Source: a virus. From it: a stretch of 58,468 nt of DNA. A program made the position numbers and the translations under genes. A model generated the notes under the pieces. It saw only the letters and a program-made list of their open reading frames with translations, searched no databases and was not told the origin of the DNA. The stretch is taken from positions 1-58,468 of the IMG/VR virus record IMGVR_UViG_3300003322_000857. One strand, written 5' to 3'. Every line of letters begins with the position of its first letter. Positions within the stretch are counted from its first letter, which is position 1. This document shows positions 10,245 to 54,408 of the stretch, in pieces.

Positions 10245-12008
10245 TTACGCATAGAAAACACTTTCAACAACAACTTGAAAAATAGATGACGCAGAAGTTG
10301 TATCACCCGTTACTTCTATTTGAATATCATTTCCAATATTCGCAACCGTAATAGCACCACCCGTTGAAGAGTTAATTAAGTCATAATCTAATAACTCTTC
10401 TGTTACGGATGTCTCATCGCGTCGGTAACACGCTTTAATCGTGCCAGATATCACCGCCATGGCATGACCATCTATGCTAGAGAATGAACCGCCATTCACC
10501 GTAATTTTTAAATAAACATAAGAATTATCAGTCATTGTCAAAATGGTTCTGGTCTGAGGAGAAGCACCCGTTGTCGCAATCTTACAAGTCGATACCGTAT
10601 ATCCAGGATTAATTGAGAACTGAGTAGGTAACGTTAAATCCATTCTGACATTACAAGGATAATAAGGCGCACTTGATGAATGAGGTTTAATATCTAAAAC
10701 AGCTAATGGCGGATTAACATTGATACCTAGTTGCGCAATACCCATTAATCCTTGATACGCAGCGGTTGCATTTAATGTGGTGAATGAACCTAAACTCATA
10801 CAACCATCAAACCCACCGTTTATAGTTGAAGCACGACCAATAATAATATTATCACTCGCTGTCGTTAATCCGGTTGTGGCGGAACTTGCACCCAGCACAA
10901 CGTTGCCTAAACCTGTCGTAATTGAGCTGCCTGTTAAATAGCCCGCAGCAACATTACTTTTGCCAGTCGTTACCGCGCTTAAAACCTGAAATCCAATTCC
11001 GCTGTTAAAATCAGCATTATTAACCGCTGCGGCAAGTCCGCCATATCCGAAAATAGAATTGCCCGTACTATCTTCGATATTAATGCCGCAGTTAATGCCA
11101 AATAGGTGATTGAACTGCCCCGCAGTAATTGAAGTGGCAGTATTTCTGCCGTAAAAAAGATTTCCAGTTACAATACCGCTATCAATAATTCGGGTTGGAT
11201 TACCTTGTGCTAAATAATCACTTCCAGGAACGGCAATCGATAACGCGCCTGTTCCATTTGTGCTTTTTAATATGCCTGTATCAAATGTCGATAATGCAAT
11301 TTCATTACTTAAGCCACTGACCGGAACGGTTGTAATATAAGGCGCATCCGTTGGCGCCCCTGTTGCACTTCCATTCGATGCAGCGGTTATCCATCCATAT
11401 TCATTAATGGTTAAGGAACCGCCCCCGAAAACATAAGTATCTGCTGTTACACCGGTTGGAACCACGCTTAATTCAGGACTGCCCACAATACCATCCGCAT
11501 TGGAAACGGCTATGGCAGAAGAGTCAGAGGTTAAAATAGAACGTGTAGCGGTTCCTGAGTTTGTTCTAACTAATAATCCCTCAGAGATTAAATCAGAGAT
11601 ACTTTGTAATGTATCATCAAGCTCTGCCATAATCGTGCCAGAACCAACAATAGGACCGCCTGTAAAAACAATACCCGTACCAGTCGCTGCGATATCAATG
11701 CTCGTTACCGTTCCGGTTCCAGCCGGGGTGACCCAAGTACTCGTATTATCGGTATAATTAATTACGCCGGTATCCGTATTAAAAATTTGCATACCGGGTG
11801 CTTTATTTAATGCATTTCTATCCTCGGTTCCCATCCTTGGTAATACAAATGCCCCTTTCGTTGATTGTATTTCAAGTGCTGCTGAAATCGGCGCATTATT
11901 TGCCCGCGTTAAAGTCGGTGTAACACCAACCGTTAATGGGCTGCTTAACGTATCCGCAATCAATGCGCTCGTTGGTATATAAGTTGGTGTAACTAAATTG
12001 ATACTCAT
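10245..12008 (-). CDS. Fibre-like virion protein with shared N-terminal module
   Basis: 587 residues. Residues ~30-90 hold a module shared with three other genes in this window: ISAALEIQSTKGAFVLPRM, then a Gly-Met-Gln-hydrophobic-Asn turn. The remainder is Ser/Thr/Gly/Asn-rich beta-structure with GTVTSI and GSGTI repeats and a region resembling trimeric adhesin head repeats (residues ~300-420). Likely a trimeric fibre or decoration, with the common module as its virion anchor. Confidence 0.65.
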   Translation of the reverse strand: MSINLVTPTYIPTSALIADTLSSPLTVGVTPTLTRANNAPISAALEIQSTKGAFVLPRMGTEDRNALNKAPGMQIFNTDTGVINYTDNTSTWVTPAGTGTVTSIDIAATGTGIVFTGGPIVGSGTIMAELDDTLQSISDLISEGLLVRTNSGTATRSILTSDSSAIAVSNADGIVGSPELSVVPTGVTADTYVFGGGSLTINEYGWITAASNGSATGAPTDAPYITTVPVSGLSNEIALSTFDTGILKSTNGTGALSIAVPGSDYLAQGNPTRIIDSGIVTGNLFYGRNTATSITAGQFNHLFGINCGINIEDSTGNSIFGYGGLAAAVNNADFNSGIGFQVLSAVTTGKSNVAAGYLTGSSITTGLGNVVLGASSATTGLTTASDNIIIGRASTINGGFDGCMSLGSFTTLNATAAYQGLMGIAQLGINVNPPLAVLDIKPHSSSAPYYPCNVRMDLTLPTQFSINPGYTVSTCKIATTGASPQTRTILTMTDNSYVYLKITVNGGSFSSIDGHAMAVISGTIKACYRRDETSVTEELLDYDLINSSTGGAITVANIGNDIQIEVTGDTTSASSIFQVVVESVFYA

Positions 12009-12034
12009 ATATTTAAATCCTTTTAAATATTAAA

Positions 12035-14374
12035 TTAAGCGGGTGCTAAAACAGTGATAGTTCCATTAGAACCGATGTACCTTAAAGCACCGCCTTGAAC
12101 ATAAAGAATGCCGCCGCCAACTGGTGTCGTTGGTCCATTACTGGTAGTTGCAATAAAGACATTCGCGTTCGGTGTTCCGCCCACATTGTTTATCTTTAAT
12201 GCATAGGTTGCATCCGGCGCATAATAATCAGTACCAGCAACAGCAATACTTTGTACCCCGGTGGTTGTCGTGTTTTTAACTAAACCTGTCGCTAAGGCAC
12301 CCATTGCTTGTGCATTTGGCATTGAACCGTCAGCCACTTGAAGTAAAAATTTAGCACTGGCACTCGGTCCCGTTGCAGCCGTCCAAGATAAATTACCGCT
12401 GGTGTCAGACGATAAATGGTAACCACTGACGCTTGGATAAGCATTTGGCCAAACATACGGTGTATCGCCGCCTGGGAACGTTGCAGGGGCTTTAATCGAG
12501 AAGAAATTACCATTACTATTGCCCCACACTTTTAATGCGCGACGTGTAGTCCCATTAGAAATAATTTCAAAATCCGCTAACGATAAAACGGTCGTGCTGG
12601 GCGCAAGACTAATTCCACCATTCGGTGCAACCAGATTAAAATTGGTTGTGGTGCCGTCCCCCGCAATTCCGCTTGAATTGGATAACCAACCACCCACTGT
12701 TGTCGCGACTAATCCGGTCAGTGTGGTGTTTAGTCCTATCGATCCACTCCCTGTGATAACGCCACCGGTTAAATTTGGGCTAGTGGCAGTGATAGAGGTA
12801 ACAGTACCTGTACCGGGTGTTACCCAACTCATCACACCTGCGGTCGTTGAACTTAATACTTGACCATTCGACGCGGGGGCTGCTTGAGGCAACGTATAGC
12901 TATGCGTTGTTAAAGTTCCGGGTGCTGTAAAGCCAACCGAGTTTGCACCGTTAAATACTTTAAGCGAAGAAGTAACGTTCATATTAGCGGTTGATACAGC
13001 AGTCCCTGCAACAAGCAATAAAGTTGGTAAAGTCGTTAAAATTTTACTATTTGATGCATCTTGGTCCGCAATTGTCATTGAGCCTACAGCAACGCTTGTT
13101 AAACCAGTCAAAGTGCTATTTAGTGCGATGGTTCCGCTGCCTGTGATAGTTCCGCCTGACAAATTGGATCCAGCGGTTATCGATGTGACAGTACCGCCGC
13201 CACTGGTTACCCAAGACATGGCACCACCCGTAGTACAGCTTAATAATTGACCATTTGATACAGGGGGAGCAGAAGGTAAAGTGTAAGATGAAATGGTGGG
13301 AGCCGATGGTGCAGAGATACTAATACTGCCAGACGCAGAACCATTAAATACAAGTGGATTTCCAGACATTAATCTAGCAATACCAGCAAAAGAAGTGATA
13401 GCAGCACTAATTGCTATAGAACCGCTGCCAGAATCAGAATTTATCGTCAAACCAGGATTTGTTGAGCTAATTAGTGAATTTGAACCCGATGTAGAAATTG
13501 TTAAGTTACCAACGCTGACAGCAGCCGATGATAAACTGGTCAGTCCCGATACCGTATTACTTAAAGAAATCGTACCCGTCCCGGTAATGGGATTCGGTGT
13601 CGCACTTAAATTAGATCCTGCGGTAATGCTAATGCTTGCCGTCGTTGGATTTACCCAACTCATCACACCTAATGTAGTTGAAGCTAAAACTTGCCCATTC
13701 ACGCTTGGCAATGTAGTTGGCAAAGTATAACTAGCAGAAGCAGCTAAGGTTGGGTCAGCGGCTAATGATATAAACCGAGTTGAAGCGGTATTATATAATG
13801 CTAAACGTGCGCCCCCTTGAATCCCAAATGTACCGCCCCCATTATTAACATCAGGCGCGACTAAAATATTGCCGCCTGAAATAAGATTAAGTACGCCAAT
13901 TGCAGCGGTAGAACCCATGGTTAAGTTTGAAGAGTTCGCCGTAATATTTGAGTTACTAATGCTCACGTTACCAATAGCAGCACTTGTTAATCCGGTTAAT
14001 ACGGGATTTAAAGAAACAGAACCCGTTGTTGAAATCGTGCTCGGAGACAAAACAATATTAGAACCTTGGGTAATGCTGGTGACCGTTCCTGCCCCAGCAG
14101 ACCCGATAGGGGCCCACGCACCGCCCGCTCTGGCATAAACCGCGGTATGGGTAATGTTATATACCTGCATCCCGTCTATCGCAGGCGAAATGTCATTCAT
14201 TTCAGAATCAGTGACCCTCGGCATTAAAAATGCGCCTTCTGTTGATTGCAGTTCTAAACAGGCAGCAACAGGCACATTGTTAACCATTGTAGGGGCTGGT
14301 ATATAACCTAGCGTAGTAGGGTCAGCGATCAAAAATCCGCTAGCGATTGCGGTAGGGTAAGTAAAGTCAGCCAT
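12035..14374 (-). CDS. Long repetitive tail-fibre-like protein
   Basis: 779 residues. The shared N-terminal module (ACLELQSTEGAFLMPRV) occupies residues ~35-90. It is followed by at least four repeats that pair a 'GTVTSI-x-GSNL-GSGTI' strand with a 'NGQ-x-LSSTT-GVMSWV' element. The repeat architecture and Ser/Thr/Gly composition are typical of trimeric tail fibres. The C-terminus (GGGILYVQGGALRYIGSNG) is a beta end cap. Likely the main receptor-binding fibre. Confidence 0.7.
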   Translation of the reverse strand: MADFTYPTAIASGFLIADPTTLGYIPAPTMVNNVPVAACLELQSTEGAFLMPRVTDSEMNDISPAIDGMQVYNITHTAVYARAGGAWAPIGSAGAGTVTSITQGSNIVLSPSTISTTGSVSLNPVLTGLTSAAIGNVSISNSNITANSSNLTMGSTAAIGVLNLISGGNILVAPDVNNGGGTFGIQGGARLALYNTASTRFISLAADPTLAASASYTLPTTLPSVNGQVLASTTLGVMSWVNPTTASISITAGSNLSATPNPITGTGTISLSNTVSGLTSLSSAAVSVGNLTISTSGSNSLISSTNPGLTINSDSGSGSIAISAAITSFAGIARLMSGNPLVFNGSASGSISISAPSAPTISSYTLPSAPPVSNGQLLSCTTGGAMSWVTSGGGTVTSITAGSNLSGGTITGSGTIALNSTLTGLTSVAVGSMTIADQDASNSKILTTLPTLLLVAGTAVSTANMNVTSSLKVFNGANSVGFTAPGTLTTHSYTLPQAAPASNGQVLSSTTAGVMSWVTPGTGTVTSITATSPNLTGGVITGSGSIGLNTTLTGLVATTVGGWLSNSSGIAGDGTTTNFNLVAPNGGISLAPSTTVLSLADFEIISNGTTRRALKVWGNSNGNFFSIKAPATFPGGDTPYVWPNAYPSVSGYHLSSDTSGNLSWTAATGPSASAKFLLQVADGSMPNAQAMGALATGLVKNTTTTGVQSIAVAGTDYYAPDATYALKINNVGGTPNANVFIATTSNGPTTPVGGGILYVQGGALRYIGSNGTITVLAPA

Positions 14375-14385
14375 GGTAATTCCTT

Positions 14386-14727
14386 TTATCCTGGGCTAGT
14401 AAAATTAATGTTCTCCAATTGTTTAAGATTGGCGTCATAGGGCAAAATTGTTGATCCCTTATTTCCTTCTGGAAACGGTATAGGCGGTCTCGGATTTGGA
14501 ATCGGCGGTGGATCTGGCGGCAGCGTTAAAGGTATATTCTGAGGTTGCGGCTCATCATAAAATTCTTTATTCACCATATAACCAGTCCAAACTAAACGTT
14601 TACCGCGCCATTCCATTTGCTTGACTAAATCGCTGTAATTGCACACCATTCCGCTGGTATCACAAATTGCAACGGCGTCAGGATTTTTGGTATTAATACG
14701 AACATATCGACCAGTAGGACTTGTCAT
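14386..14727 (-). CDS. Small head-tail block protein with Pro-rich middle
   Basis: 113 residues. The N-terminal half has a CDTSGMVCNYSDL segment with two Cys and a W-W pair (MEWRGKRLVWTG). This recalls a small family found beside podovirus adaptors, which pair a Cys motif with a short Trp-Gly strand. Residues ~70-90 are a run of Pro. Four-base overlap with the adaptor gene upstream. Function unknown. Confidence 0.55.
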   Translation of the reverse strand: MTSPTGRYVRINTKNPDAVAICDTSGMVCNYSDLVKQMEWRGKRLVWTGYMVNKEFYDEPQPQNIPLTLPPDPPPIPNPRPPIPFPEGNKGSTILPYDANLKQLENINFTSPG

Positions 14728-16020: not shown

Positions 16021-16644
16021 TTAAGTAATTCCTTGTTGACAAATTGTTTCTGTTAATGTCGCGCCCGCAGTGCTCGCAGTAATCCTGATTCTTGAATAAG
16101 CAATCGGCGTCGTGTAATTAGCCAATTGATTAGTCGTTGCACCCGTCATAGCAACAATCGGATTGAAAACAGTCGGCACAGAAACTTTGTTGACATCATC
16201 TAGCGTTACATCAAATGAATAGGTAATTGTTCCAGTAACAACAACTTGAATCCCATCATTCATGACCATTCTGTTGTAGTCATTACCATGCCACACTAAA
16301 GAACCAATATGGCCAAGGCCAACTGATACCGCATTTACCGCACCATTTGTTGTAATACTTTGAATCGTCCCAAACGTTCCAACCGTCTCAACTGTGTTAT
16401 TGTTAGGACCCGCAATGACTTCTTGCTGACCCGTTGTTGAGGTAATGGTAAAATTAACCGCTGACAAGTTATTGGCAGACGTTAATGATATATTTCTTAC
16501 CATTGGATATAAGTTTGCAAATAATGGATTTTGCACGGAATATTGACCACTTAAAGTTAACGTGCCAGCAGCAGCTAAACTTTGTAATGGGGCGATAGCC
16601 GCAGTACTTGCGGCTACCCAGTTATAAACAACAGGCTTAGTCAT
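16021..16644 (-). CDS. Unknown beta-rich virion-block protein
   Basis: 207 residues, Ala/Thr/Asn/Val-rich, predicted mostly beta. Composition resembles phage decoration or small tail proteins. It overlaps the upstream coiled-coil gene by 8 bases, so the two are probably made together. Confidence 0.55.
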   Translation of the reverse strand: MTKPVVYNWVAASTAAIAPLQSLAAAGTLTLSGQYSVQNPLFANLYPMVRNISLTSANNLSAVNFTITSTTGQQEVIAGPNNNTVETVGTFGTIQSITTNGAVNAVSVGLGHIGSLVWHGNDYNRMVMNDGIQVVVTGTITYSFDVTLDDVNKVSVPTVFNPIVAMTGATTNQLANYTTPIAYSRIRITASTAGATLTETICQQGIT

Positions 16645-16894
16645 GTGTTATTTCATCCGTTACAGCACCATTAGAAACAGAGCTTCTGTTTTCAACGATT
16701 TGAACACAACCATTAAATGCTTGAATTGCACCTAATATTTTGGCTAATTCTGCTTCAATTAATTTCTTTTCTTGACGCAATTGCTTGATGGTTGCAATCA
16801 CTTTAGAATTTAATTGACCTTGAAGCTCAGTATATCTATCGCTTAATGCTTTGATATTTGCGTCAAGTTCAACTTTTACTTTACTAACTTCCAT
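16637..16894 (-). CDS. Small coiled-coil protein
   Basis: 85 residues. Residues ~5-65 are a continuous heptad-like helix (Leu/Ile spaced by charged residues), with a polar tail. It lies between a fibre-like gene and the beta-rich gene it overlaps. Could be a chaperone or trimerisation partner for them; this is inference from position. Confidence 0.55.
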   Translation of the reverse strand: MEVSKVKVELDANIKALSDRYTELQGQLNSKVIATIKQLRQEKKLIEAELAKILGAIQAFNGCVQIVENRSSVSNGAVTDEITHD

Positions 16895-16936
16895 TTTACT
16901 AACTCCCTAATGTTACAATGAAAAAAACTTTAAACC

Positions 16937-17989
16937 TTATGTTGCGTCGGTGCTTGCCAATAAGTAATAAGATGTCCCATTAATTTGAATACGAATCTTT
17001 TTCTGGTTCGCGTTAACAATCGAATCGGTAACGGCTGCCGCATTCATGGTTAATCCTAAACATCCGGCATTTCCACCTAGCGTTGGCGCATAAATCTGTA
17101 AAGAATTGGCAACGCCAGTAGGTGTATTCGTACCATTTGTTCCAATGGTTAATACAGTGAGCCCCGTTGACTCAATAGCAGTGGTTCCGACATTTAGGCC
17201 GCGCGAATTAACGGTTACTTTAGAAGCTCCAGACAAATCAAAAGAAAGATATAGGGAGCCACTGTTATATGACATTCCGCTTGATGTACCGCTTGAAAAT
17301 GCATACCTATTATTTGTTAAAAGATTTCCGGAGCCTTTACCTAATACAGAAATCGCAATAGTCGATGATGCGCCTTCTGCAGAAATGGTTGGGCCATTTC
17401 CAGTGCCTGAACTGGAAGTACCAGCTATTAATACGTCATTTACTGCATTTGAAGGGCCTGCCACTCGAAATTGCAAAACACCCGCAGTTGCTATCCCAAT
17501 CGAGTCCGCTTGATCGCTATAAACTCCGGTATTTGTGTCGCCTGTAAAAGAATAAGTCGGTGCACCTGCGGTACCAGAAGAACTAAATAAACTCGCAATT
17601 CCAGTAACAACAGCAGATATGGGATTAATCGCTACAGCTGCCGCTTGAATCAGCTTTCCAGTAACGCCATTAAATACCGCAACGCCATTATTTGGTGAGT
17701 TTGCAGGACCAACAACATTGCCGTTTCCGAAACCACCTTGCCATGCGCCATTTTTATAAATGTCAGCAACACCCAAAGTTGTATCAAAAACCTCCATCCC
17801 ATCAATTTTTACGGCAATTGCATTTTTTTCAGCCGTTGTCATTCTGGGTAAAACAAATCCGCGTGTTGTGGATTGACATTCAATGACAGCCGATATATTG
17901 ACGCCATTCACTTGTGTTGGGGTTGCAGGATATCCGTTAACGGTATCTGCTGCTAAGAGTGAAGTTAATTCTGTTGCGAGAGTCGACAT
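16937..17989 (-). CDS. Fibre-like protein with shared N-terminal module (near capsid gene)
   Basis: 350 residues. Residues ~20-90 are nearly collinear with 17999-19063: TPTQVNGVNISAVIECQSTT, then VLPRMTTAEKNAIAVKI. Residues ~135-160 (SLFSSSGTAGAPTYSFTGD) are also shared, then the two diverge in a Gly/Ser/Thr-rich body. Both converge again near the C-terminus (TPTGVANSLQIY, then an IRINGTSYYLLA-type end). Recent duplicate whose middle varies; likely a capsid- or tail-attached fibre. Confidence 0.65.
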   Translation of the reverse strand: MSTLATELTSLLAADTVNGYPATPTQVNGVNISAVIECQSTTRGFVLPRMTTAEKNAIAVKIDGMEVFDTTLGVADIYKNGAWQGGFGNGNVVGPANSPNNGVAVFNGVTGKLIQAAAVAINPISAVVTGIASLFSSSGTAGAPTYSFTGDTNTGVYSDQADSIGIATAGVLQFRVAGPSNAVNDVLIAGTSSSGTGNGPTISAEGASSTIAISVLGKGSGNLLTNNRYAFSSGTSSGMSYNSGSLYLSFDLSGASKVTVNSRGLNVGTTAIESTGLTVLTIGTNGTNTPTGVANSLQIYAPTLGGNAGCLGLTMNAAAVTDSIVNANQKKIRIQINGTSYYLLASTDAT

Positions 17990-17998
17990 ATTTCACTC

Positions 17999-19063
17999 CT
18001 ATACATCGGTTGCCAATAAGTAATAAACCGTACCGTTAACTCTTAATTGAATTTTTTTAGTTGCTGTATCTGTTGAGTCGGTAATGCATTCGCTTGGAAT
18101 AGACAAACCTAACATCCCGGCATTTGTGCCCCCCGCTGTCGTTGCACCATAAATTTGTAATTTATTTGCAACACCCGTTGGTACTACGCCGGTTCCTTCA
18201 ATACTAATTCCTCTGACCATCGTTGAGTCAAATGTGGTGCTTCCTATGTTTAATACACCGCGACCATTAAAGGCGAACGGTGATGTACCACTTGTATTGA
18301 TTCCTAAATAATTTGTGGCAGGTACTGCGATGGTTCCCGACGGTGTGACATCGATACTCGCTGTCTGGAAGTAAAGAGAAGCATTGTTACCTAAATTGAT
18401 TGGTCGACCAGTTCCTTTTGGACTTATTGTAATATCTATTATTGAACTTAAACCTGCGGCACCAATAGTAACTGCGGAGCCGCCTACAGAACCTTGCAAT
18501 TGAACATAATTAGTGGCACTTGCTGACCCTGTTACTGATAACTGGGTTGCACCATTCGCCGAGAATCCAATTTCATTTGCACCAATACGATACATTCCCG
18601 TATCTGCATCGCCTGTAAAAGAATAAGTGGGTGCGCCCGCTGTTCCTGCTGAACTAAATAAACTTGCAATTCCAGTGAAAACGGCACTTAATGGATCGAG
18701 TGCCACCGTACTCGCTTGAATAATCTTTCCGGTAGTGCCGCTAAATAGTGCTAAGGTATTGTTGGATGCAGCATTAGGGCCAACCACATCGCCGCTACCG
18801 ATTCCGCCAATCCAGGCATTATTTTGATAAAAATCAACTTTCCCTAAGTCCGTATCAAAAACTTGCATGCCATTTACTTTAACGGCAATTGCATTCTTTT
18901 GAGCGGTTGTCATTCGAGGCATTAAAAGCGCACGAGTTGTCGACTGACATTCAATCACAGCGGATACGTTGACACCATTGACTTGTGTCGGAGTGGCGAC
19001 AGCACCACCCGTACCCGAATCCGCTGCGAGTAATGCGGTTAATTCAGTAGGCGTAATCGACAT
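17999..19063 (-). CDS. Fibre-like protein with shared N-terminal module (paralog)
   Basis: 354 residues, paralog of 16937-17989 with conserved N- and C-termini and a diverged middle. It starts 18 bases after the capsid gene stop, inside the same transcript, so high expression is expected. That placement, away from the main tail fibres at 10-14 kb, suggests a head fibre or decoration rather than a tail-tip fibre. Confidence 0.65.
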   Translation of the reverse strand: MSITPTELTALLAADSGTGGAVATPTQVNGVNVSAVIECQSTTRALLMPRMTTAQKNAIAVKVNGMQVFDTDLGKVDFYQNNAWIGGIGSGDVVGPNAASNNTLALFSGTTGKIIQASTVALDPLSAVFTGIASLFSSAGTAGAPTYSFTGDADTGMYRIGANEIGFSANGATQLSVTGSASATNYVQLQGSVGGSAVTIGAAGLSSIIDITISPKGTGRPINLGNNASLYFQTASIDVTPSGTIAVPATNYLGINTSGTSPFAFNGRGVLNIGSTTFDSTMVRGISIEGTGVVPTGVANKLQIYGATTAGGTNAGMLGLSIPSECITDSTDTATKKIQLRVNGTVYYLLATDV

Positions 19064-32271: not shown

Positions 32272-32401
32272 CGTTCAGCATGTGGCTAAACGGGTTCATG
32301 GTGATAAATACGCTCAAAGCGCATCTCTTTTGGTTAGAAGATGCGTAGAGCACTGTAGAAAAGAAGGTATATTGGTTAAATTAGCTAATGCTAAGGAGTG
32401 A
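32210..32401 (+). CDS. Small basic protein, possible ribbon-helix-helix regulator
   Basis: 63 residues. A short strand (ACTIRMDYGVW) followed by two helices (NVQHVAKRVH, SASLLVRRCVEHCRK) fits the ribbon-helix-helix layout. GAGG precedes the ATG by 8 bases. As second gene after a palindromic promoter, it could be the autoregulator. The fold is inferred. Confidence 0.5.
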   Translation: MKKYRKLKACTIRMDYGVWANVQHVAKRVHGDKYAQSASLLVRRCVEHCRKEGILVKLANAKE

Positions 32402-32403
32402 TT

Positions 32404-32739
32404 ATGAGTTCATTAAGAGGTTTTTTAAGGCAATCTTTAGAAAACAATAAGGAAGCATTTGATTCTGAATTTAAGGATTTACATTTTTATATAACCCAAT
32501 TTTTAATGCTGGGTTCAGATTTTAATAATTTACGTATGTTTGATATAGATATTTTTTTAAATACTGTAAGCGATCATATCAAAGATATGAAGAATCAAAT
32601 TAGTTATTATGAAAGTATGACCGATATTATGTACCAAAAAAGAAGAGAGTGTTCTATTCTTGGTGATTGCAATAAAGAGAAAAAAATTTATGATGATTAT
32701 TCAGAATATAGAAAAGATAGGGCTAGCGAGGAGGATTGA
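32404..32739 (+). CDS. Tandem-duplicate helical protein, copy 1
   Basis: 111 residues from ATG 32404 (AAGGAG five bases upstream). Shares order and motifs with copy 2: FDSEFKDL, GSDFNNLRM, a Y-Y-E-S-M helix, KRRECSILGDC. The Cys-Ser-Ile-Leu...Cys motif is conserved, hinting at a structural role. Function unknown. Confidence 0.65.
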   Translation: MSSLRGFLRQSLENNKEAFDSEFKDLHFYITQFLMLGSDFNNLRMFDIDIFLNTVSDHIKDMKNQISYYESMTDIMYQKRRECSILGDCNKEKKIYDDYSEYRKDRASEED

Positions 32740-32741
32740 TT

Positions 32742-33080
32742 GTGAACTCATTTAAAAAAGATTTAGCTCAACATAGTATGAGCGAAAGAAAAACGTTTGA
32801 TTCTATATTTGAAGATTTATATAATGATGTAAAGCAATATTTAAAAATTGGTTCACATTTTGATATTTTGCGGATGCTTGAGTTAGATTATTTTTTAGAT
32901 ACCATTAGAAAACATATTGAAAACATGAATGGTCAAATTGCTTATTATCAGGCTATGTCTAATATTTTGCTTGATAAAAGAAAACAGTGCTCTATTCTTG
33001 ACGGGTGTAGTAGAGAGAAAAGAGCTTATGAAAATTATTTAGAATATAAAAATCATAATGAATTTTTGATTAAGGACTGA
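32742..33080 (+). CDS. Tandem-duplicate helical protein, copy 2
   Basis: 112 residues; GTG start at 32742 with GGAGG seven bases upstream. Aligns over its length with copy 1 (FDSIFEDL, GSHFDILRM, AYYQAM, KRKQCSILDGC). Roughly half the positions are identical or similar, so the duplication is moderately old. Function unknown. Confidence 0.65.
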   Translation: MNSFKKDLAQHSMSERKTFDSIFEDLYNDVKQYLKIGSHFDILRMLELDYFLDTIRKHIENMNGQIAYYQAMSNILLDKRKQCSILDGCSREKRAYENYLEYKNHNEFLIKD

Positions 33081-40056: not shown

Positions 40057-40428
40057 CTATCCCAATAACTCAATATCGTGTTGAAGCTTATTTTTAATTG
40101 ATTTTAGTTCATCAATCTGTTTGCTATAAAAAGACTGTAGTTCATCCGACAGCCTATATTTAATAGGTATTAAGTTTTTATCGCAATCTATAAGACTCTT
40201 AATTCTCGCATCTATTTTTTTAATATGAATTAATCCTATATCTTTCAAGGCACTTTGTGATAATGATTTCCAAAAATCATCTACAGCCTCATTAATAAAT
40301 CGCTCGGAATATTTTTCCCAATAATTGGCTGTAGCCACTCTCATTTCTAAAGCTTCATGCTCGCTAATATAACCATCAACCTTGCCTATAAATAAGAATT
40401 TAATAGTTAGCCATAATCGTTTAATCAT
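40057..40428 (-). CDS. Three-member paralog family, copy C
   Basis: 123 residues from ATG 40428 (GAGGAAACAAG upstream; the longer frame to 40479 overlaps another gene). Family layout: short amphipathic N-terminus, D-GYISE motif, helix with LSQSALKDIG, C-terminal coiled coil IDELKSIKNKLQHDIELL. Overlaps the preceding tiny membrane gene by 8 bases (ATGATTAA). Function unknown. Confidence 0.55.
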   Translation of the reverse strand: MIKRLWLTIKFLFIGKVDGYISEHEALEMRVATANYWEKYSERFINEAVDDFWKSLSQSALKDIGLIHIKKIDARIKSLIDCDKNLIPIKYRLSDELQSFYSKQIDELKSIKNKLQHDIELLG

Positions 40429-40582
40429 CTTGTTTCCTCTCAAAAAGTAATACCTCAATTTCGCAATCCATTTCGTCATCTTCTCTTCTAAAGCTTATTA
40501 CACGATGAATTTTAAGCGCTAAGTGTGCAGTAAATATAAATTTTATAGCTATTAATACGCGTATAAAAAATCTTTTAAACAT
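40421..40582 (-). CDS. Tiny membrane protein
   Basis: 53 residues, ATG 40582 with AAGGA 7 bases upstream. Basic start (MFKRFFIR), one hydrophobic segment (~9-23), acidic end (REDDEMDCEIEVL). Lies between two members of a paralog family and overlaps one. Confidence 0.5.
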   Translation of the reverse strand: MFKRFFIRVLIAIKFIFTAHLALKIHRVISFRREDDEMDCEIEVLLFERKQDD

Positions 40583-40595
40583 TTTGTTTCCTTAT

Positions 40596-40919
40596 TCAAC
40601 TCGGCCATATTTTATCGTCACAAAATTTAATCCTATCCAAATCCTCTTGTATACTTTCCTTTCTTTTATTTAATTCCTCTAATCTAGAATCATAATCTGG
40701 CCGACCTGTCCCCCACGTCTTTATGTTATGTATAGTAGCGTCAATAACAGATATCTGATAATTGCCAAAATCAGTTAATGACATCTTTTCAAATGAGTCT
40801 ATAATTTTACGTTCGGCAACCGCAATACTATACATAGCTAATAACTCACTAACATAACCAGGAATTTTAAGGTTATAAAACTTATTTAGACACCAATTAT
40901 AAATTGATCTTGCGCTCAT
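40596..40919 (-). CDS. Three-member paralog family, copy B
   Basis: 107 residues with the same layout: IPGYVSE near residue 18, MSLTDFGNYQISVID helix, C-terminal coiled coil LEELNKRKESIQEDLDRI. The start context shows no strong ribosome-binding site. Function unknown. Confidence 0.55.
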   Translation of the reverse strand: MSARSIYNWCLNKFYNLKIPGYVSELLAMYSIAVAERKIIDSFEKMSLTDFGNYQISVIDATIHNIKTWGTGRPDYDSRLEELNKRKESIQEDLDRIKFCDDKIWPS

Positions 40920-40987: not shown

Positions 40988-41275
40988 TTAGGCATTCTCT
41001 AGCTTCTTTATATCAGAAATAAGCTTATCTCTTATTTCCCGTAGTTTTTGTATTTCGTCTAAATGATTAATCTTTTTGAAACTAAAATATAATTTAGTTA
41101 ACATTGCTTCACCAACAAACCTTAAGTCACTTTGAGATATATTTTCCCACAAATCTTCTTCAAATATATCGAGCGTAGTTCTCAATTTTTCATCTGATAA
41201 TTTAATTTTAATATATCCAGGAATCTCACCTTTGAATAATCCTTTAATACCATCGAGAACGCTTTTAATAGTCAT
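40988..41275 (-). CDS. Three-member paralog family, copy A
   Basis: 95 residues: EIPGYIK motif, ISQSDLRFVG helix, C-terminal coiled coil IQKLREIRDKLISDIKKL. First gene after the promoter at 41470-41498 and its leader. Function unknown. Confidence 0.55.
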   Translation of the reverse strand: MTIKSVLDGIKGLFKGEIPGYIKIKLSDEKLRTTLDIFEEDLWENISQSDLRFVGEAMLTKLYFSFKKINHLDEIQKLREIRDKLISDIKKLENA

Positions 41276-44736: not shown

Positions 44737-44865
44737 GGTGCAGTAGCGAAGCGAGTTACGCGAACTCGTAAATCTCATTGCAGTAAAGCGCGACCGTCAA
44801 TCCGGTTTTATAGTGTGCACCGCGCTTTTTTGAGAGTAAAGGTTCAAATCCTTTCTGCACCGCCA
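44737..44865 (+). tRNA. tRNA-like RNA with abnormal centre
   Basis: 129 bases. Perfect acceptor stem GGTGCAG/CTGCACC (7 bp), discriminator G, encoded CCA, perfect T arm AAAGG-TTCAAAT-CCTTT, D-stem GCG/CGC. The middle does not give a normal anticodon arm (ACTCGTAAATC looks like a tRNA-Tyr loop with an extra base). It is enlarged by a hairpin AAAGCGCG/CGCGCTTT. Either a decayed tRNA-Tyr-like gene or a tRNA mimic with an insertion. Confidence 0.5.
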
Positions 44866-45444: not shown

Positions 45445-46146
45445 TCATGATATCAATTTATTTTTATCAATTGAAAGCTTTAGCAATAATGCTACTTCTT
45501 CCACTAACGCTGAAAATTCTATAGCAGCGGGTCCTTTTTCCGATGTAACGCCAAGACCAGATTGAGCGGTAGTTGGATACGCAACAAAATTTGTTAATTT
45601 ACTTTTCAGGGTAGGTATCTCATATGCATCGAGAGCGTCTTGAACGTCTCTAGCTAATATAGAGTTCTTTAATAATCGATTTATAACAAAAGCGGCTAAC
45701 GGCTGCGTGTTACCAGTTATTTCTTGTCTTTGTATTACAAGATCAACTAAATCCTTAGTTGCCCACACATCGTAAGGACTTGGCTGTACAGGAATTAAAA
45801 CCAAGTCAGACACCATTATTGCAGCGGAAGCTAGCTTATCAATTCTTGGTGCGCCATCTATAATAATTAGATTATAGTTATCCTTCATCCTTTCGATATC
45901 CTTAGCCAAGGTAGTCCGTGGAATCGAAATGCATTCAACATGTTTACCACCATTTGCTTCGTGCCAATCTCCAGCAGAACCCTGCGGATCACTATCGACC
46001 AGCAACACCTTGCCTGTTAACAATGATTCATTTGAGCCAATAGGTAATTGAAAAAATGCCTGTTGAAATTCGTATGCCAAATTAGTAGAAACCGTTGTTT
46101 TGCCAACCCCCCCTTTATCATTAATTACGGCAATAACCTTTCCCAT
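45445..46146 (-). CDS. parA: ParA-type partition ATPase
   Basis: 233 residues. Deviant Walker A KGGVGKTT (11-18), Walker A' / B VDSDPQG (50-56), IIIDGAP (94-100), and PVQPSPYDVWA. No N-terminal HTH, so it is the small (type Ib, ParF-like) class, which pairs with RHH proteins such as the one downstream. It segregates low-copy plasmids, so the element is maintained extrachromosomally at some stage. Confidence 0.88.
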   Translation of the reverse strand: MGKVIAVINDKGGVGKTTVSTNLAYEFQQAFFQLPIGSNESLLTGKVLLVDSDPQGSAGDWHEANGGKHVECISIPRTTLAKDIERMKDNYNLIIIDGAPRIDKLASAAIMVSDLVLIPVQPSPYDVWATKDLVDLVIQRQEITGNTQPLAAFVINRLLKNSILARDVQDALDAYEIPTLKSKLTNFVAYPTTAQSGLGVTSEKGPAAIEFSALVEEVALLLKLSIDKNKLIS

Positions 46147-48016: not shown

Positions 48017-49042
48017 TCATACGAAACAGGTTGGGCTTGCTCCAGCTGGGATGATTGGTCGTTCAAAGACAGCAAAGGCTTCTTCGTATTGTTGAGCGGT
48101 TCCAGAGCGTGGTTGATTTCCAGGTTGTTTGTGTGCGTTTTGTATTGCTGCATTTGCGTACACCTCATCATAGTTTGTTTGATAACCGTCAATATCTAAC
48201 CAACGTTTAGCGGTTAGCCAAAAATTACCATGCTTCCAATCTGGGTAATCTACTTTCCAAGTTGGATTGTCGGCTTTAATTTTTCGTAGAATCTGACCTT
48301 CAGTGACGTATGCCACCAAACCCGCATAAATTTCTTCTGAGAGCTTTTTAGCCTCTGCTACGGGTAAGGGTGCCAGAAGGGATGTGAAATACTTCAGAGC
48401 GTCAGATTTGCCTTGTTTTTTGGGGTATAATTTCCAGTATCTCTTGAAGGCTGCCTCAATTTGTTCTTTTGTCGGTCTGTCTTTGTTTTTAAGTTTAACA
48501 ACTTTATTTTCTGAAAGAGCGTCACCATCGGTGACGATAAGATCACTTTCAATATTATTACTACAGTTACTATTGTTATTAGTATTCTTAATATTAGTAT
48601 TCTTAATACAAGTGCTGATTTTCAGCACTTCGGTTTTCATAACTTCGGGTTCTAGGGTTTTGTTCTCCGACGTTATGATTTTCATCACTTCGGTGGATGC
48701 GCTTTCGTCATCTAGGAAAACAGGTTCATCAGAAAATACGCGCTTAGACCCCATGAATTGTCCTTTTTCATTCTGGGGATTAGTAAATTTTTTCATATAT
48801 CCAAACTTTCTTAGTTCTGCGAATAGCTTATATAATTTTTGTCTGCCATAGCCTAAATTTTTCATAATGATGTGATCGTAAAATTTATGATTTGGCATGT
48901 TAATAAAGCTACATAAATAAATTAATAACATACGGGCAGAGTCAGATAATTTATCGTTTCTTATAAGTTCGTTTGATATCTGAGAAAAATTATCGCGTCT
49001 TTTTAATAGGCGAGGGTGGGCCATTAATTCACTAGCGGACAT
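48017..49042 (-). CDS. Replication initiator-like protein with winged helix
   Basis: 341 residues from ATG 49042 (AGGAG eight bases upstream). Residues ~15-95 form a winged HTH (LSDSARMLLIYLCSF, GYGRQKLYKLFAELRKFGYM). Residues ~130-185 are an Asn/Thr-rich linker. Residues ~190-275 match the C-terminal domain of phage O/DnaT-type replication proteins (FKRYWKLYPKKQGKSDALKYF ... HGNFWLTAKRWLD). It should bind the origin and recruit host helicase. The origin may lie inside the gene linker or in 49043-49400. Confidence 0.65.
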   Translation of the reverse strand: MSASELMAHPRLLKRRDNFSQISNELIRNDKLSDSARMLLIYLCSFINMPNHKFYDHIIMKNLGYGRQKLYKLFAELRKFGYMKKFTNPQNEKGQFMGSKRVFSDEPVFLDDESASTEVMKIITSENKTLEPEVMKTEVLKISTCIKNTNIKNTNNNSNCSNNIESDLIVTDGDALSENKVVKLKNKDRPTKEQIEAAFKRYWKLYPKKQGKSDALKYFTSLLAPLPVAEAKKLSEEIYAGLVAYVTEGQILRKIKADNPTWKVDYPDWKHGNFWLTAKRWLDIDGYQTNYDEVYANAAIQNAHKQPGNQPRSGTAQQYEEAFAVFERPIIPAGASPTCFV

Positions 49043-49080
49043 TCTTGTCACTCCTAAATTAATGCCAACTAAAAAAATAG

Positions 49081-49175
49081 TTGACAATAGATTAATCTTT
49101 GGAGATAATGCCCCTAACTTGATTGTGGGAACATTAAATCCATTCCTTAGGGCGACTTTGCGGGTCGCCCTTTTA
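49081..49175 (+). ncRNA. Promoter plus short terminated transcript (candidate small RNA)
   Basis: TTGACA 49081-49086, 17-base spacer, GATAAT 49104-49109; expected start near 49116. A stem AGGGCGAC/GTCGCCCT (49149-49156, 49164-49171) followed by TTTAATTT would stop it after ~60 bases. No ORF. It lies divergently between the replication gene and the next operon, where copy-control RNAs or attenuators are found. The remaining 49176-49361 is AT-rich with no gene. Confidence 0.5.
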
Positions 49176-51091: not shown

Positions 51092-51367
51092 ATGCAAAAT
51101 AAAAAATTAACCGCAAAAGAAAAATGGCTATTAAAACCTGAAGATGAAAAGCTTTTTTCTATAGCACATCGTGCGATCATGAGTTTGCAGAGTTCTATTA
51201 CACAATATTATCCACTGTTAGGAAAACTAGATTTCGATGAGTATATAGAGGGTTGTAAGGCACAAATTGATTATATTCAAGATAAGTATATAAGACATTT
51301 TATGCCGGGTGATGCATTATATCCTGGCAAAGGAAAATATGGGACGGAAAGGGGAGAGGAACAGTAA
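51092..51367 (+). CDS. Small unknown protein
   Basis: 91 residues, helical, basic N-terminus. Leads directly into the paralog array (TAATG overlap with the next gene). Confidence 0.5.
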   Translation: MQNKKLTAKEKWLLKPEDEKLFSIAHRAIMSLQSSITQYYPLLGKLDFDEYIEGCKAQIDYIQDKYIRHFMPGDALYPGKGKYGTERGEEQ

Positions 51368-51675
51368 TGAATGATGAAAAAATTAAACAAAGGGCATCTG
51401 TTATATTAAGCGAAGATGCTTTTAAGCTGTCGAAACAAGCGCAACTTAATTTCTTAGAAACAATACAAAATAGTGAAATCTATAAAATAATTAAAGATGA
51501 TCCCGTTTTACTTGAGACGTTTGTAATTAATAGTGCTAGTAGTCTTATAGATAGAATACTTCGTGCTACGGCGATTAAATACGGTGGTCTAGATTTGCGT
51601 ATGTTAGATGGTTGCTTAAATCAAATTAGAAGTGGCTTAATAGAGCATTTTAATTCTGAAAAGGAAGAGTCATGA
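51367..51675 (+). CDS. Tandem ~100-residue family, copy 1 (most diverged)
   Basis: 102 residues. Shares with the following genes the size, helical make-up, a central 'FVINSASSLIDRIL' helix and a Glu/Ser-rich end. Similarity to the others is weak, so membership is tentative. Function unknown. Confidence 0.5.
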   Translation: MNDEKIKQRASVILSEDAFKLSKQAQLNFLETIQNSEIYKIIKDDPVLLETFVINSASSLIDRILRATAIKYGGLDLRMLDGCLNQIRSGLIEHFNSEKEES

Positions 51676-52016
51676 TAAACCAAGATGAAAAAGCTTTGCC
51701 AGATCATATTTTATTAGCCGATGACTGGACCAAAAACTTAGTTAATAAAATAAGCGATGAAGTATTTAGAATTATACATTCTGTTGACTGTAACGATATA
51801 AATAAAGTTTTTAATGAAATTAATCTAAGAGAAGATGAAAAAAAATTTAGTTTTGTTATGACAATTTTAAGTAGTGTAATGTGTGCGGCATTGTCTGGCA
51901 TTAAAAATAGTGATGGCACAAAAGATGAAACGAGAAAGTTAATTGCTATTATTTTAAAAAACTTTATTGATGGTGTATGGAAAAACATGAACGAAAACGA
52001 TTCGGCTTTACATTAA
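51672..52016 (+). CDS. Tandem ~100-residue family, copy 2
   Basis: 114 residues. Family order visible: I-x-x-I-x-H-S-V start helix, KKFSFVMTILSSVMCAALSG central helix, KNFIDGVWKNMNENDSALH end. Closest to copy 3. Four-base ATGA overlap with copy 1. Function unknown. Confidence 0.6.
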   Translation: MINQDEKALPDHILLADDWTKNLVNKISDEVFRIIHSVDCNDINKVFNEINLREDEKKFSFVMTILSSVMCAALSGIKNSDGTKDETRKLIAIILKNFIDGVWKNMNENDSALH

Positions 52017-52026
52017 GGGGCAATTA

Positions 52027-52332
52027 ATGAGCGATAAAAAAGATTGTGCTTTTTTTGAAAAAATTTGCAATGGAATTGGCGATATTTTAAATTCTATTAA
52101 GTCGGAAGATCTCAAGAGAATCTATAAAGAGTCAGGTATGTCTCCAAAAGAGGCAAAAGTAAGCTTTGCATTTGGTATTTTAAGTCATGTGCTTTCAAAT
52201 ATAATAGTTAATCTTCCTAAACCGCCTGAGATTGGAAGAGAAGATAAAGTAAAATTTTATTCTTTTCTTATAAAGAATTTTACAGATACAACATGGCAGT
52301 TCATAAACGAATCAGATTCTCAAATACATTAA
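52027..52332 (+). CDS. Tandem ~100-residue family, copy 3
   Basis: 101 residues: ICNGIGDILNSIKSEDLKRI, VSFAFGILSHVLSNII, then KNFTDTTWQFINESDSQIH. Aligns with copy 2 over the full length; upstream TTAAGGGGCAATTA resembles the starts of copies 4 and 5. Confidence 0.6.
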   Translation: MSDKKDCAFFEKICNGIGDILNSIKSEDLKRIYKESGMSPKEAKVSFAFGILSHVLSNIIVNLPKPPEIGREDKVKFYSFLIKNFTDTTWQFINESDSQIH

Positions 52333-52342
52333 GGGGTAATTT

Positions 52343-52678
52343 ATGGCGCAAAGCGAATATTATGATGGTGAGACGATAAGAGCAGGATTCTTGACAGAAC
52401 AAAGCGATTTAGGGAAGCATGTTGTAACTGTCCTTAATAAATTAGTTAATATTCTTGAAGCTTATTACTTTATGAATAGAGAATCTATTCAACAATCTAC
52501 TGATGATGGTATGAATCCGCAGTTATCTTTTTACTCTAGCGTCATTTATTCTTTGGTAATGTCAGTTTTTGGGTCTGCGGCAAAGAATATAACGGATGAT
52601 AAATCAATTCGAGCCAAATATATAGATGAGGTTATGCATGAGATTCGGAATCGTTTAGATAATGTGTTGTTAAAATAA
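52343..52678 (+). CDS. Tandem ~100-residue family, copy 4
   Basis: 111 residues: LNKLVNILEAYYFM, SFYSSVIYSLVMSVFGSAAK, C-terminal amphipathic helix. Same layout, diverged C-terminus without the NE-D-S-x-H end. AGGGG upstream. Confidence 0.55.
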   Translation: MAQSEYYDGETIRAGFLTEQSDLGKHVVTVLNKLVNILEAYYFMNRESIQQSTDDGMNPQLSFYSSVIYSLVMSVFGSAAKNITDDKSIRAKYIDEVMHEIRNRLDNVLLK

Positions 52679-52687
52679 GGGTTAATT

Positions 52688-52996
52688 ATGAGTCGCGAAA
52701 ATAAATATGAAGATAAAGCGCAAAAGATTACAGGGAAATATATTAATTCAATCATTAATATATTAAATTCTATTGAATCTGAAGAGCTAGAAATTTTGCA
52801 AAAAGGTTTTGATTTGTCTGAAGGAGGATCAAGAGCATATTTTATAAATAATGTTTTAAGTGCCGTGCTTGCATGTGCCATGATGTCTGGGATGCAAAAA
52901 GAGCTAAGAGAAGATTTTTTAGCTGTTTTTTGGAGTTTTACAAGGAGTAGAGTTAAAGAAATAGAGGAAAACGAATCATTACAAACGCAGCATTAA
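52688..52996 (+). CDS. Tandem ~100-residue family, copy 5
   Basis: 102 residues: INSIINILNSIESEELEIL, RAYFINNVLSAVLACAMMSG, then FWSFTRSRVKEIEENESLQT and a QH end. Its 3' end was copied to make the fragment at 53657-53740. Confidence 0.6.
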   Translation: MSRENKYEDKAQKITGKYINSIINILNSIESEELEILQKGFDLSEGGSRAYFINNVLSAVLACAMMSGMQKELREDFLAVFWSFTRSRVKEIEENESLQTQH

Positions 52997-53014
52997 GGAA
53001 GAGGGGAAAATTAA

Positions 53015-53323
53015 ATGTATCCAAATGAAGATGATATGAACTTAGCATTAGAAGTTATAAAGAAATACGGCAAAAAAATAAATAAATTATTTAATTCGGC
53101 TGATGAAAGTGATCGAGAAATCTTATTAAAAGGACTGGCTGGGGACGGTAGCCCTTTAAAGGCTAGATTTAGCTTTATGTTTCAAGTTTTAGCTGACGTT
53201 GTAACGCAAGAAATAACATGTACTTTTGATAAAAAAGAATGGACAAAATTAATATCATTGTTTAAAAAGACAGTAGATGTGAGATTTGAAGTGATAAAGT
53301 TAGAGGATAATGATTCTAAATAA
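53015..53323 (+). CDS. Tandem ~100-residue family, copy 6
   Basis: 102 residues: KKINKLFNSADESDREILLK, ARFSFMFQVLADVVTQEI, KKTVDVRFEVIKLEDNDSK. Same three-block layout. Function unknown. Confidence 0.55.
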   Translation: MYPNEDDMNLALEVIKKYGKKINKLFNSADESDREILLKGLAGDGSPLKARFSFMFQVLADVVTQEITCTFDKKEWTKLISLFKKTVDVRFEVIKLEDNDSK

Positions 53324-53341
53324 AATAAAGGGGTAAATCGA

Positions 53342-53644
53342 ATGGAGTGGTCAGATAAATATTTAGAAGCCGTTAGTGCAATATTAGATAGCTATACCCG
53401 CCAGATAGTTGATATATTAAATTCTACTGACGATATAGAGAAAAAATACCTTGAAACAATTTTTGATTTGAGAGGTGAAGCTGCTAGGATGCATTTTGTA
53501 AATTGTGTCATATCCAGAGTTTTCGCAAGAACTTTAATAGCATTTGCTAGCGAAGAAAAGTGGAGGCCTCTTTTGAATGTTTTTGTTTCTAGTGTGAATG
53601 AGAAGCTGGAAGGATATAAAGCGCATATTGGCGAAAAGCATTAA
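53342..53644 (+). CDS. Tandem ~100-residue family, copy 7
   Basis: 100 residues: RQIVDILNSTDDIEKKYLET, MHFVNCVISRVFARTLIA, then VSSVNEKLEGYKAHIGEKH. Best aligned with copies 5 and 6. Function unknown. Confidence 0.55.
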   Translation: MEWSDKYLEAVSAILDSYTRQIVDILNSTDDIEKKYLETIFDLRGEAARMHFVNCVISRVFARTLIAFASEEKWRPLLNVFVSSVNEKLEGYKAHIGEKH

Positions 53645-53656
53645 GGAGTAAATAAA

Positions 53657-53740
53657 ATGGGGTTTTCAATTTTTTTGAAATCTACATGGAATAGAGTTAA
53701 AGTATTAGAGGAAGACGAATCATTACAAACGCAGCATTGA
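53657..53740 (+). pseudogene. 27-codon fragment of copy 5
   Basis: A short frame whose last ~15 codons (RVKVLEEDESLQTQH) match the end of copy 5 (RVKEIEENESLQTQH), nearly base for base. AAGGAG lies 9 bases before its ATG. The front is unrelated. Marks a recent, incomplete duplication. Confidence 0.65.
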
Positions 53741-53781
53741 GTGGACTCATCAAAAACTAAACATTGATAGGGGGAAGTGGG

Positions 53782-54252
53782 GTGGAAAAACAATTTAATC
53801 AGAAAGAATTTTTTAAAAAAGTTGGCTTAAGTAATACGGTAGGTAAATCATATGATTTTCCAATTAATAATAATTTTGTAAATGATTTAATCTATAAGGT
53901 TACAGAACACTGTTTTAATTATATAAGGGATGCTATAGAAGAAAATCATGACAATATATTTTTAAAGGAAGTTTCTAGAAACGAAGCCGTAATCGGAGGA
54001 ATAAAAAAAACCATTAGACGTCATATTTTTATGGATTGTAGTTCTTTTTTATATTACCATGCAAGCCTTCATTCCGCAGACTGGGGTTTTTACATGGATA
54101 AAATGGAAAAAGAAATAGATGTTAGATTAAATTTCCTTAAAAATAATTTAAAAGAATATATTTCTGGAATGACAAAGCCAATTCCTGAAGAAGAAAAAGA
54201 AGCAATCAAAAACATGCTTATATTAAAGTTTGATGTGAACGAAAAGCATTAA
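53782..54252 (+). CDS. Unknown helical protein, possible distant family member
   Basis: 156 residues if GTG 53782 is used (GGGGGAAG just upstream). Helical, with CFNYIRDAIEENHDNIF and a C-terminal ..NEKH end like copy 7. The relation to the array is suggested by position and end only. Confidence 0.5.
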   Translation: MEKQFNQKEFFKKVGLSNTVGKSYDFPINNNFVNDLIYKVTEHCFNYIRDAIEENHDNIFLKEVSRNEAVIGGIKKTIRRHIFMDCSSFLYYHASLHSADWGFYMDKMEKEIDVRLNFLKNNLKEYISGMTKPIPEEEKEAIKNMLILKFDVNEKH

Positions 54253-54264
54253 GGAGTAAACAAT

Positions 54265-54408
54265 ATGTCGGCAGATTGTTATAGTTCTATTGCAGTAGTT
54301 ATTTCGATTATTTTTAAACTAACGGTGACTGTATGTTTAATAATATGGCTTTTTGTAATAAAAAAAAAGATGAAACCAAAAGAATTAAAGCAAAATATGA
54401 AGAAATAA
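54265..54408 (+). CDS. Tiny membrane protein
   Basis: 47 residues: hydrophobic segment ~8-32, then a Lys-rich tail (KKKMKPKELKQNMKK). AAGGAG lies 8 bases before the ATG. Overlaps the next gene by 76 bases in another frame. Confidence 0.55.
   Translation: MSADCYSSIAVVISIIFKLTVTVCLIIWLFVIKKKMKPKELKQNMKK

Follow-up and report, generated by a model that had tools for sequence, protein, structure and literature searches.

In phage T4, the anti-toxin gene tifA was amplified by segmental amplification (PMC9391042), and anti-defence loci undergo amplification driven by SegB (PMC13096335). Phage SPO1 has a host takeover module, a gene cluster encoding proteins that act on processes of the host (PMC6873191). 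These systems serve as precedents by analogy only for the locus described here, an array of diverged small genes in a single 58,468-base IMG/VR virus record, IMGVR_UViG_3300003322_000857, which was analysed over its whole length and is referred to as the window.

The window encodes a portal protein, a large terminase, a ParA partition ATPase (45445–46146, minus strand; phrog_164) and a replication initiator (48017–49087, minus strand; phrog_270), and hence we regard it as a tailed phage with plasmid-like genes. The ParA has plasmid relatives at about 50% identity, for example in Thiothrix, and the combination of ParA and initiator suggests a phage-plasmid lifestyle. A plus-strand stretch at 49081–49171, antisense to the leader of the initiator gene, carries a promoter-like TTGACA-17-GATAAT (11 of 12 positions, counted as consensus matches only) and, about 40 nt after it, a hairpin of 10 pairs and its T run; by its layout, this stretch looks like a candidate antisense copy-control RNA. 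At 44737–44862 (plus strand) there is a 126-nt tRNA-like sequence that scores 37.1 bits with Rfam and for which ARAGORN makes no call. Its T and acceptor arms are intact, and the anticodon-loop region holds, after UUGCA, some 50 nt that include a T run and a G+C-rich hairpin. The sequence may be a tRNA-Cys(GCA) split by an intron or by an insert that resembles a terminator. Two neighbouring tail-fibre-like genes (16937–19063, minus strand) are 52% identical to each other and share shorter similarity with the larger genes at 10245–12008 and 12035–14374. The array itself lies away from the head and packaging genes and close to the replication initiator gene, in a region where small ORFans abound.

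Seven ORFs of 100–114 residues, named A to G in order, run along the plus strand from 51367 to 53644. Neighbours overlap by 4 nt at the closest and stand 18 nt apart at the widest, and a Shine–Dalgarno-like sequence stands ahead of every start, in agreement with the original prediction of adjacent small genes that resemble one another in size and start context. We compared the Smith–Waterman score of each pair with the scores of 300 shuffles. None of the 300 reached the score of B (51672–52016, 114 residues) against C (52027–52332, 101 residues), E (52688–52996, 102 residues) or G (53342–53644, 100 residues), and the same was true of C–E, C–G and E–G and of F (53015–53323, 102 residues) against both E and G. 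The pairs B–F and C–F are weaker, their scores being reached by 7/300 and 1/300 shuffles. The closest pairs are B–C (Z = 20) and E–G (Z = 17), which fits what would be expected from local duplication. When each of the five was left out in turn, hhalign recovered it from the other four with a probability of 94.0–97.5% (B, 96.8%; C, 97.5%; E, 97.4%; F, 94.2%; G, 94.0%), and the identity of the other copies to E is only about 20–30%. By these comparisons, B, C, E, F and G are one homologous family of small proteins.

Gene D (52343–52678, plus strand, 111 residues) is a borderline member. It has a collinear hhalign match of only 1.2% probability, yet that match lies above all 60 shuffles. Its hmmsearch score of 6.0 bits is reached by 8 of 1000 shuffles and equalled by an unrelated ORF, its semi-global pairwise scores against the family are not significant, and its AlphaFold model, built with the family alignment, is helical with a pLDDT of 61.6. 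Gene A (51367–51675, plus strand, 102 residues) is adjacent and similar in size, and we rejected it as a member because it scores no better than shuffled sequence: 406 of 1000 shuffles reach its score against the five-member profile, and 266 of 1000 against the six-member profile. The 156-residue neighbour H, considered as a longer member, likewise lacks profile support (809 of 1000 shuffles score as high). The seven paralogs originally proposed are thus reduced to the five upheld by shuffles and hhalign, with D at the border and A dropped, and the array appears to have five members, perhaps six, not seven.

Directly after the end of G lies a 27-codon ORF (53657–53740, plus strand) with its own ribosome site and ATG, which is read in the same frame as E. 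An ungapped 72-nt alignment between 52926–52997 and 53670–53741 is 86% identical; identity increases toward the 3′ end, and about 41 of the last 45 bases agree. This ORF had been described as a fresh partial copy of the gene at 52688–52996. That it copies the 3′ end of E was confirmed, and that it is fresh was not, since by its sequence it is an E-like copy truncated at the 5′ end, a remnant that is neither intact nor fresh. Over its last 24 codons, the remnant differs from E at about 11 nonsynonymous positions and 1 synonymous position, an excess that is not significant and cannot be distinguished from neutral change (P = 0.31). The boundary between G and the remnant is itself repeated. A 28-base sequence comprising the last codons of G, the stop, the ribosome site and the ATG of the remnant (53632–53659) recurs with 93% identity at 54240–54267, where it spans the end of H, its stop, a ribosome site and the ATG of the next ORF, both copies being on the plus strand. 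H is unrelated to G, yet the two genes have these 28 nt in common at their 3′ boundaries. Like the remnant, the 28-base repeat speaks for recombination at the boundaries of genes.

AlphaFold2, run on E with the five-member alignment, produced four helices (residues 3–28, 31–41, 45–66 and 71–101; mean pLDDT 78.5, pTM 0.51), a prediction of moderate confidence that points to a helical bundle as the family fold. The helical layout first noticed in the sequences is therefore borne out, and the motifs fall in helices 1 and 3: helix 1 closes with I/L, L/F/I, N/H and S, and helix 3 carries F-x-x-x-V/I-L/I-x-x-V. All five proteins have a hydrophobic residue in 21 columns of the alignment, among them the invariant F52 and V60. 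Conservation is higher in these columns, with 3.0 of 5 residues identical on average, than in the 50 polar columns, with 2.3 of 5. S28 is also invariant and looks like a helix cap, standing as it does at the end of helix 1. Helix 1 is strongly amphipathic (0 of 2000 shuffles), and helix 3, the most hydrophobic of the four, is probably central; the highest helix average on the Kyte–Doolittle scale is 0.73. GRAVY values of the members range from −0.18 to −0.41, and the calculated charge at pH 7 of these 100–114-residue proteins ranges from −0.3 to −5.2, which suggests neither membrane proteins nor DNA mimics. A small membrane protein of the holin or exclusion type was rejected because hydropathy (GRAVY and Kyte–Doolittle) reveals no transmembrane-like segment, and a DNA-mimic antirestriction protein of the ArdA or Ocr type was rejected because strong acidity would be required. 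The members are predicted to be soluble, all-helical proteins of 11.5–13 kDa, near neutral to mildly acidic.

We searched widely for relatives of the family. Pfam, PHROGs, NCBIfam and PADLOC returned sub-threshold matches only, PADLOC being a collection for defence and not counter-defence proteins, and in these four collections no member matches a known anti-defence, host-takeover or other family. The best hit of the family profile in a PDB sequence search had an E value of 0.12, which we took as chance, and Foldseek with the moderate-confidence E model found nothing at E ≤ 0.001 in the PDB (best 1.8) or BFVD (best 1.4). Scans of IMG/VR with B, C, E, G and H and of GTDB with G yielded no relative, and tblastn gave nothing significant in phages (B, E and F) or plasmids (E), although scans with a single short protein reach close relatives only and distant ones could escape. 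An exact scan of IMG/VR with 29 nt from the 3′ end of E found none, and no family member was present in 369 genomes from the class of a Methylomonas MAG that carries a related terminase. It had been proposed to compare copy number among related phages; a full-sensitivity profile search of eight of them, five longer than 46 kb, found no member in any. The nearest relative, L086, whose terminase is about 71% identical, is a 20.9-kb fragment, and so the absence of the array from it proves little. In the literature that we covered, outside of which lie most subscription papers, no phage family of this kind is described. As far as searched, then, the family is undescribed, as had been predicted, and it is narrow and apparently restricted to its lineage.

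Taken together, we favour, at a probability of roughly 0.4, a lineage-specific helical family that arose by unequal recombination and supplies accessory proteins that bind and modulate differing factors of the host, of defence systems or of competitors. Repeated unequal recombination would have copied units consisting of a gene plus its ribosome site, so that the array grew; one later copy would have been truncated by deletion, leaving the remnant, and gene-boundary sequence would likewise have been copied downstream. The tightly packed run of genes is probably expressed as one transcript. The copies would have retained their common hydrophobic core while similarity elsewhere was lost, and one scaffold might in this way have come to serve several partners. 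The accessory-factor part of this reading is weakened by the lack, in the four collections searched, of a match to any known anti-defence or host-takeover family. Nor do substitutions between the copies, or between E and the remnant, reveal the positive selection that might be expected if, as first suggested, the array were selected against varying host targets.

Somewhat unlikely, in our judgement, is the alternative that the array owes its existence mainly to an accessory region prone to duplication. Copies there would arise frequently by recombination, drift with little constraint and disappear again, and one original modest function would suffice, with no diversifying role besides. A survey of all small genes of the window for adjacent duplicates recovered two further sets of tandem small ORFans, unrelated to the array: 32398–32739 with 32736–33080 (plus strand, Z = 32), and 40057–40479 with 40988–41275 (minus strand, Z about 8), which 40596–40919 joins (Z = 5). 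The array, at 51.7–53.6 kb, is the largest tandem case in the window. L086 has at least four tandem small-gene sets within about 6 kb (11885–12483, 12750–13305, 13516–14636 and 16609–17491). These resemble the array in being adjacent, diverged small ORFs in an accessory part of the genome, but they belong to other, unrelated families and do not match the profile of the array family. The set at 13516–14636 consists of two adjoining genes of about 185 codons that by look encode helix-turn-helix regulators, and the one at 16609–17491 of three copies of about 75 residues each. In another relative (L087–L090), duplicates are both adjacent and dispersed. A 129-residue gene that by appearance resembles MazF/PemK occurs there twice, at L087:8797–9186 and L088:6793–7182, 96% identical and in opposite orientation. 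Judging from these gene sets, the lineage makes a general habit of duplicating small accessory genes in tandem. Because unrelated small genes are likewise duplicated here and in L086, this habit accounts for the copying better than a dedicated system does, and adjacent duplication alone is no sign of target variation.

The truncated remnant inside the array also speaks for such turnover, as do the substitution rates. Between full copies, Nei–Gojobori dN is 0.76–1.15 and dS 0.82–1.84, both high and near saturation, so that they bear out no more than the upkeep of the reading frames and the core. Against drift as the main explanation, five full-length ORFs remain open with their ribosome sites and a conserved core in spite of near-saturated silent sites, which argues that the copies are maintained by selection.

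We consider it improbable that the paralogs come together as subunits in a single hetero-oligomeric assembly of helical proteins, where every copy would be specialised for its own position. Divergence of duplicated homo-oligomer subunits is an established route to hetero-oligomers, and co-directional genes with short spacers that encode amphipathic helical proteins of equal size would suit such an assembly; the truncated remnant and the borderline D, however, suggest that copy number is not fixed. We hold equally little expectation that the array serves the maintenance or immunity of a plasmid-like phage, through superinfection exclusion, copy control or plasmid stability. The ParA and initiator genes reside in the same genome, and the array starts about 2.5 kb from the latter, but no member matches a toxin, repressor or DNA-binding family in Pfam, PHROGs, NCBIfam or PADLOC, and none has a membrane-like segment. 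Less probable still is that the five or six copies form a functional set built on a new helical scaffold, in which each paralog binds its own partner among host defence proteins or competitor proteins, or hetero-oligomers widen the range of targets, and in which copy number rises and falls by recombination at conserved gene boundaries.

If, as we favour, the copies act on different host or rival factors, the array would be a natural panel in which one scaffold has been adapted several ways within one genome, and such a panel would help to identify what these phages counter. Should duplication be the whole explanation, the locus would still illustrate clearly how lineage-specific families come about in phage accessory regions through the copying of whole gene-plus-ribosome-site units, since a single genome here preserves both a truncated remnant and a copied gene boundary.

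Set beside the known systems, the array would share with the SPO1 host takeover module the arrangement of a gene cluster whose products act on the host, as we propose; no sequence relation between the two was found. The likeness to the amplification of tifA and of the loci driven by SegB lies in the process, in which recombination yields tandem copies of a phage gene. Those amplifications are recent and laboratory-selected, whereas the copies described here are only about 20–30% identical to E.
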